IMG/VR virus record: IMGVR_UViG_3300032296_002019
Location: 1-64,000 of that record
Reading direction: 5' to 3' (one strand)
DNA length: 64,000 nucleotides
Source: a virus
Shown here: positions 39,041-39,344 of the stretch, piece after piece
Layout of the letters: each line of letters starts with the position of its first letter
How positions within the stretch are numbered: the stretch's first letter is position 1
The notes under the pieces: model-generated
What the model was told of the DNA's origin: nothing
What the model saw: only the letters and a program-made list of their open reading frames with translations
Databases searched by the model: none
Program-made: the position numbers and the translations under genes

Positions 39041-39072
39041 AAAAAAATCTGGCGGGAATACTGATTACCCGC
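39041..39072 (-). terminator. Intrinsic terminator of the unassigned RNA
   Basis: Minus strand GCGGG (39,072-39,068) pairs with CCCGC (39,056-39,052), then CAG and a seven-T run. Confidence 0.75.
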
Positions 39073-39344
39073 AACCCCTGGACGGACCCCTTTTCACCCA
39101 TAGTCCACAAAGATGATCAGTCCTTGTGTTGAGACTAGCTGGATTGACTACCAGCAACGCCTGCGGAGATCAGTTGCAATTTCTTCGGCGTATCCAGAGC
39201 ACTGTTGGGTTGCGCATTCTACCCTTAGTGATGGTGGTTTTAACTCATCCGTCTGTGATACCCAACTCAACAGCTTTTCAGCTATCTCGCCAGTGCTTTA
39301 GCAGCTCTCAACCGCTTATTCAGCCACAGTTTTTCTTAAAAGAA
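39041..39344 (-). ncRNA. Unassigned structured noncoding RNA, about 300 nt
   Basis: No gene is convincing here on either strand. Minus-strand helices nest well: GTTGAG (39,312-39,307) with CTCAAC (39,133-39,128) closes a multiloop. Inside it AGCACTG (39,297-39,291) pairs with CAGTGCT (39,204-39,198), holding an AGCT-GAAA-AGCT hairpin and TTGGGT (39,265-39,260) with ACCCAA (39,210-39,205). CTGGAT/ATCCAG with inner ACGCC/GGCGT forms another arm. A -7 box (TACATTTG) stands just upstream and an intrinsic terminator ends it. I cannot match it to RNase P, 6S, SRP or tmRNA. Confidence 0.7.

Follow-up and report, generated by a model that had tools for sequence, protein, structure and literature searches.

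Since 2010 manA RNA (RF01745) has been regarded as a possible riboswitch of 5' UTRs (Weinberg et al., PMC2864571), and Rfam labels it cis-regulatory. GOLLD and ROOL are large, elaborately folded phage RNAs of unknown function that reside near tRNA islands (PMC12286853). Within cyanophages the settings of manA are varied. In S-CREM1 (OP535465; PMC9964418) its annotation begins immediately past tRNA-Leu and reaches the first base of tRNA-Asn, and in S-SSM7 it ends directly before tRNA-Gly. Its neighbors are regA/purL in P-SSM2, pstS in P-SSM4, ferredoxin/carbamoyltransferase in P-SSM7 and gp23 in both P-RSM4 and S-SSM5. A TATAAT-like hexamer, mostly with TTGACA upstream (by eye), is present at the manA edge in six of the six cyanophages without a tRNA directly upstream. 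Judged from these arrangements, a free RNA appears to explain the varied settings better than a switch for one pathway, and manA may have a 5'-UTR role in some phages. Hypothetical CDSs lie over the manA RNAs of P-SSM4 (164884-165057), S-SSM7 (151441-151572) and S-SSM5 (116417-116623), and are probably spurious. The tRNA stretch of S-CREM1 that holds manA also contains a wcaG RNA (OP535465, 9745-9842; L096), 47 nt upstream of tRNA-Met, and in the same phage an abiF RNA is found 4 nt before tRNA-Gly; such labels may deserve the same doubt as that of manA.

The locus described here lies on the minus strand of a 99,488-base IMG/VR virus record, of which the first 64,000 nucleotides were analyzed (the window). 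Positions 39041-39340 contain no genes on this strand and have a GC content of 47.4%, against 34.5% for the whole window, as a first-pass annotation of this DNA had proposed with coordinates correct to within a few bases. The segment corresponds to the full span of model R1 of a structured, manA-like long-form RNA (324.8 bits, with the window in the training set), and the nhmmer family match covers 39053-39329 (E = 7e-76). The RNA had been placed immediately upstream of the tmRNA unit, and it does lie upstream of the tmRNA gene (38325-38837, minus strand; RF00023, 59.6 bits), with a 60-codon ORF without a PHROGs family (38841-39023, minus strand) between the two. A terminator-like hairpin 3' of the tmRNA (38274-38297, minus strand), found by terminator scan as a consensus match only, is a possible end of the RNA-ORF-tmRNA unit. 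The order on the minus strand is promoter-like element, RNA, short ORF, tmRNA and terminator-like hairpin. Two plus-strand ORFs within the segment (62 and 79 codons) were discarded, because of the helix covariation and of indels among the relatives.

The promoter-like element (39351-39369, minus strand) consists of TAcaTTTG at 39351-39358, which agrees with the TAnnTTTG box reported earlier, and the overlapping ATATTTATATATACA at 39355-39369, both identified as sequence matches. Exact copies of ATATATTTATATAYAC recur 5' of the RNA in six related contigs (L014, L016, L024, L031, L032, and L041), and the element may well act as a promoter for the window RNA. The sole other exact ATATTTATATATACA in the window, at 53643-53657 (minus strand), is located upstream of the gene at 51974-53404; ATATTTATATATACA is possibly a promoter used at more than one phage gene. 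The intrinsic terminator assigned to the 3' end of the segment did not hold up: positions 39052-39072 form P10, a 3' hairpin common to the family and present in all full-length members whether or not a U-run follows. In the window the T-run begins 4 nt past the stem, and a standard terminator scan called no terminator at 39052-39072.

No Rfam model matches 39041-39340 at gathering scores. In a permissive search of 601 nt, RF01745 matched 39042-39344 from the first to the last model position (29.4 bits, E = 1e-5), with relatives of the window RNA scoring 24-35 bits; none of these reaches the manA gathering cut-off of 55.2 bits. The match is carried by the 5' block GUGGCUGAAUAA and the 3' block GUUGCGGGUAAUCAGUAUUCCCGCC, and the middle is approximately 100 nt longer and unaligned. 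Up to E = 10 the only Rfam matches to the segment were manA and one weak sRNA, in agreement with the earlier statement that it is not RNase P, 6S, SRP or tmRNA. A significant hit to a known Rfam family had been named as evidence against a new class; the search returned a match to manA at E = 1e-5, yet 26 bits below the curated cut-off, and so bears out that objection only halfway. The description as an unassigned RNA of a new class therefore stands as far as the RNA is uncatalogued, but not in the sense of being unrelated to known classes, as its ends and the sub-threshold match point to a relative of manA.

The homologues that the first-pass annotation had proposed to collect were found. The first pattern search, built from the 3' block, yielded one canonical manA (L004, 80.5 bits) and four phage contigs (L001, L002, L003, and L005) with a clearly homologous 300-nt RNA containing internal blocks missing from manA; the set then grew through further patterns drawn from these blocks as well as from both end parts (5' and 3'). 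A sequence profile placed the family in 58 sources, the window and 57 other uncultured viral contigs, with 38 distinct full-length sequences and a mean identity of about 64% among 34 representatives. The RNA nearest to that of the window is found in L041 (89%). With the covariance model, which was built without them, five divergent members (L089, L090, L092, L093, and L094) reach 100-129 bits; this very divergent branch has GUGxxxUGAAUAA repeated near the 3' end. L006, L017, L019, L021, L022, L035, L042 and others are chance matches to the patterns. A further chance match, L116, reaches 21.4 bits with R1, mostly from its 3' hairpin sequence, and the E-values of R1 are therefore rough.

Outside these contigs, a nucleotide search of 50,697 phage records (queries: window RNA, L039, and L004) gave no relevant match. 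The pattern TGATCATN{11,15}GGGTGAAAAGGG had 14 matches in 84,980 species genomes, none homologous on inspection, and R1 found no member in 396 genomes of one phylum (strict filters, without a positive control). Within the limits of these two genome searches, the family therefore looks phage-borne; our searches found no cultured phage with the long form.

To evaluate the fold we used an alignment of 30 sequences (A1) with 12 named helices: P2a, P2, P3 lower and upper, P4, P5a, P5b and P6-P10. Standard pairs occupy 93.0% of 1637 cells, compared to 74.9% after shuffling, and two-sided changes occur at 42 of 55 pairs (30.0 shuffled) and in 317 cells (112.9 shuffled). The covariation score is 0.558 against 0.236 for shuffled alignments, and none of 500 shuffles scored as high. 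Because the structure was derived from the same sequences, these counts lean toward the fold, to an extent shown by sliding the partners 1-3 columns, upon which the paired cells fall to 32-44% and the score to at most 0.165. The nested helices initially seen in the single sequence are thus real by covariation, and the paired segments vary with compensation, the possible test suggested for them at that time. The firmest helices are P4, P6, P7, P8, P2 and P10. Folding energy is uninformative as proof of structure (z = -0.9 on the minus strand and -1.5 on the plus strand).

All elements of the fold are on the minus strand. The 5' module common with manA (39301-39324) comprises GUGGCUGAAUAA, the P2a 5' strand (39323-39324) and the P2 hairpin (39312-39315/39301-39304), is 100% paired and follows the layout of the manA model. 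Its 2-bp helix P2a is completed by a 3' strand at 39295-39296 and is paired in 30 of 30 sequences (GC, AU, GU and CG, UA), with the variants GC/GC, AC/GU and GU/AC. P3 (39262-39293; 39289-39293/39262-39266 and 39281-39285/39270-39274) is the hairpin previously described as GAAA-capped; its loop is UGAAAA, 85-90% of its cells are paired and 8 of 10 pairs show two-sided changes. The P4 5' strand (39248-39253) pairs over a long range with 39081-39086 (6/6 pairs two-sided, 96.1% paired). The P5a/P5b hairpin (39200-39230; 39227-39230/39200-39203 and 39221-39224/39207-39210) is paired in 77-82% of cells on A1, where the alignment is loose. The P6 5' strand (39187-39191) has its partner at 39157-39161 (98.7% paired, 3/5 pairs two-sided), which together with the P7 hairpin (39151-39155/39138-39142; 100% paired, 3/5 two-sided) makes up 39138-39161. 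P8 (39133-39137/39101-39105; 100% paired) encloses P9 (39124-39128/39106-39110; 86% paired), with ACUGAUCAUC in the P9 loop, over 39101-39137. The near-invariant GGGUGAAAAGGG block and the covarying P4 3' strand form 39081-39100. P10 (39052-39072), GCGGG-UAAUCAGUAUU-CCCGC, is the 3' module common with manA, corresponding to the manA 3' hairpin, and is 100% paired in the 30 sequences.

Two further pairings were considered. A candidate closing helix, P1 (39331-39338 with 39040-39047), is suggested by flank complementarity, which over the whole family is 13.8 against 11.2 with swapped partners (sd 0.48); it is weak in the window and its own subgroup and clear in L001, L002, L033, L038, L039, and L044. 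Nested in P4, a 4-bp AACC/GGGU pairing between the UUAAAACCAC and GGGUGAAAAG blocks has compensatory forms in the divergent L089, L090, L092, and L093 and is plausibly real. It was left out of the counted structure because the main group has an A-G mismatch.

The manA model is laid out as P1, GUG, a 2-bp helix around UGAAUAA, a hairpin, UAAg and the core, and in its 3' part a hairpin with the loop UAuacAguAAU directly precedes the P1 3' strand. The manA-type 5' module (GUGaCUGAAUAA, P2 hairpin, UAAgGu and 2-bp helix) is present in the new RNA, with the motif at the very 5' end in 36 of the 38 members, and the P10 loop reads GGUAnnC...A. The manA core, a multibranched P3 and a helix before the 3' hairpin, is missing; P3-P9 are of another layout and are left unaligned by the model. 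The 5' motif was also found at the right place in four of four manA RNAs of named cyanophages, which were chosen by the Rfam model alone. In the reverse direction, R1 recovered the manA of L004 at the right place and in full length with 24.4 bits, a match that is weak by itself because a chance match elsewhere reaches 21.4 bits; the other canonical manA RNAs tried with R1 gave no match. The long-form RNA is not filed as a manA member, because the cut-off is not reached and the core feature is absent. On comparison of the sequences we regard it as an undescribed, divergent and enlarged relative of manA, and common descent of the end modules is likely.

It is unlikely that the RNA is instead a new class unrelated to manA whose similar ends reflect convergence or chance, a reading under which the fold, the family and the tRNA linkage would all stand. 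No match reaches the manA cut-off, the cores resist alignment and the scores are modest in both directions, as such a reading would have it. However, both RNAs carry two modules in one order at matching ends, and these include the 2-bp P2a around UGAAUAA-hairpin-UAA; for each of the four manA RNAs the 5' motif arose in only 6-21 of 5000 shuffles, and both RNAs occur in phage tRNA arrays.

Analysis of the surroundings with ARAGORN identified a same-strand tRNA or tmRNA gene at most 40 nt away in 41 of the 58 sources (the tmRNA 3' end of L014 was added to this count by hand); in none of the 58 did the opposite strand carry one within 500 nt. This agrees with the earlier suggestion of a tRNA/tmRNA-linked phage RNA. 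The other 17 sources have no called tRNA or tmRNA within 40 nt, some of them being contig ends. Counted by cluster, tight linkage is found in 14 of 25 at 90% identity and in only 4 of 12 at 80%. The RNA lies between two tRNAs in L038, L039, L040, L046, L064, and L072, where the modelled block is separated from them by 7-11 nt on its 5' side and 10-16 nt on its 3' side, a spacing of about the length of P1. It follows the tmRNA 3' end by 7-25 nt in L013, L016, L020, L025, and L030, and precedes the tmRNA by 22 nt in L034, L048, and L049. A tmRNA above the Rfam cut-off was found in 17 of 49 records searched. The RNA is away from tRNAs in the window, L029 and L026. In L089, L090, and L094 it is 63-106 nt from tRNAs in large arrays.

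Taken together, we consider it probable that this is a phage non-coding RNA of about 300 nt, an expanded branch of manA, which is made from or beside tRNA/tmRNA transcripts and works in trans as a free, stable molecule. For both manA and the long form, the position among tRNAs suggests free molecules rather than switches attached to mRNAs. Transcription would proceed either jointly with the tRNA/tmRNA unit or from a promoter of the RNA itself; in the window it would run from the 39351-39369 element across the ORF and the tmRNA. Enzymes trimming the adjacent tRNAs or tmRNA would then free the RNA from its precursor. P1 might shield its ends, and the invariant purine-rich loops of the compact fold could serve as a binding surface. 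Because the RNA travels with tRNAs and tmRNA, our likeliest guess is a translation-linked job during infection, on ribosomes or in tRNA supply. The linkage may also reflect only co-location in a variable island. A broader proposal, in which manA and the long form are one phage superfamily of trans-acting RNAs resident in tRNA arrays, with common ends and interchangeable cores, the cis label of manA is wrong, and the RNAs are a factor acting on host translation, is put forward tentatively and with considerable doubt.

A cis-acting riboswitch or attenuator, as in the Rfam label of manA, with the tRNA/tmRNA unit or the downstream small ORF under its control, is also improbable. The original proposal of manA as a 5'-UTR candidate (PMC2864571), the ORF and tmRNA that follow the RNA in the window, the promoter-like element directly 5' of it and the promoter at the edge of most cyanophage manA RNAs all speak for such a role. 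Many relatives, however, follow a tmRNA or tRNA and have a terminator-like hairpin or a further tRNA behind them, leaving no consistent gene to control, and the downstream features vary among members as well as among seven cyanophage manA RNAs.

Sixteen sources contain a boxA-like GTTCTTTRA, in the form GTTCTTTGA or GTTCTTTAA, 10-16 nt upstream of the conserved 5' block (L002, L003, L005, L007-L012, L023, L029, L033, L034, L037, L048, and L049). It resembles the antitermination element of rRNA leaders and would fit a long untranslated RNA being transcribed under antitermination. In the window, a boxA-like GTTCTTTGACA is found 3' of tRNA-Leu, at about 33340 (minus strand). The upstream boxA-like GTTCTTTRA, the close fit of the RNA between tRNAs and the candidate closing helix P1 would also suit a processing or antitermination spacer, whose fold protects tRNA/tmRNA transcripts and paces their maturation without a separate target. 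We judge this quite improbable, as sequence and structure are conserved far beyond the needs of a spacer and the RNA also occurs away from tRNAs, in the window and in L029 and L026. Least likely of all is an RNA-only assembly (homo-oligomer or cage) working like GOLLD and ROOL but outside those families, which would be in line with the common residence in phage tRNA islands (PMC12286853), the elaborate fold and the invariant purine-rich loops, and against which speak a length of about half that of ROOL or less and the absence of a match to the Rfam models of GOLLD and ROOL at gathering scores or up to E = 10.

Elsewhere in the window, a second gene-free, GC-rich stretch (33440-33770, minus strand; about 52%) immediately precedes tRNA-Leu and has TATATTTG on its own upstream side. 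It includes a tRNA-like piece uncalled by ARAGORN, with the T-arm CCGGTTCGAGTCCGG and the ends AGTCAGG/CCTGACT; a likewise uncalled piece in the tRNA arrays of L040, L064, L065, L071, L076, and L079 shares 90-91% identity with it. Another part matches L016 upstream of the tRNA-Leu of that contig. Rfam gave no match on the stretch other than tRNA-Leu itself; by its position and these resemblances it is possibly another tRNA-linked phage RNA. The window phage also encodes a GroEL-like chaperonin (55081-56733, minus strand; phrog_5725, E = 8e-144), a ribonucleotide reductase and a DNA polymerase.

With this family, phages gain an elaborate RNA class whose 12 supported helices and dozens of known natural variants suffice to build a structural model and to found a new Rfam family. 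The class also calls for a rereading of the orphan manA, a riboswitch candidate for which, as for its larger cousin, a place between tRNAs like that of a stable RNA is now evident. Function can be tested in the cultured cyanophages that carry manA beside tRNAs, S-CREM1 and S-SSM7.

Among known systems, manA is the closest. Both RNAs have the 5' GUGrCyGAAyAA-hairpin-UAArGy with a 2-bp helix and, in the same end order, a 3' hairpin with a UAnnCAGnAnU-type loop directly before the P1 3' strand (P1 being a candidate helix in the long form), and both are phage-borne, with manA in a tRNA-array setting in S-CREM1 and S-SSM7. In contrast to manA, the long form has a core that is about 100 nt bigger, with helices P4-P9 and conserved blocks that manA lacks, and it is found in tRNA/tmRNA units and not in the 5' UTR of metabolic genes. 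The wcaG RNA (RF01761), a cyanophage RNA labelled cis-regulatory, is similar in its tRNA-side position in S-CREM1; its model does not match the window RNA. tmRNA (RF00023) is a frequent direct same-strand neighbor in the same phages, but in the window its model matches the separate gene and not the long-form RNA. Like GOLLD and ROOL, the long-form RNA resides near phage tRNA islands, but it is much shorter than either.
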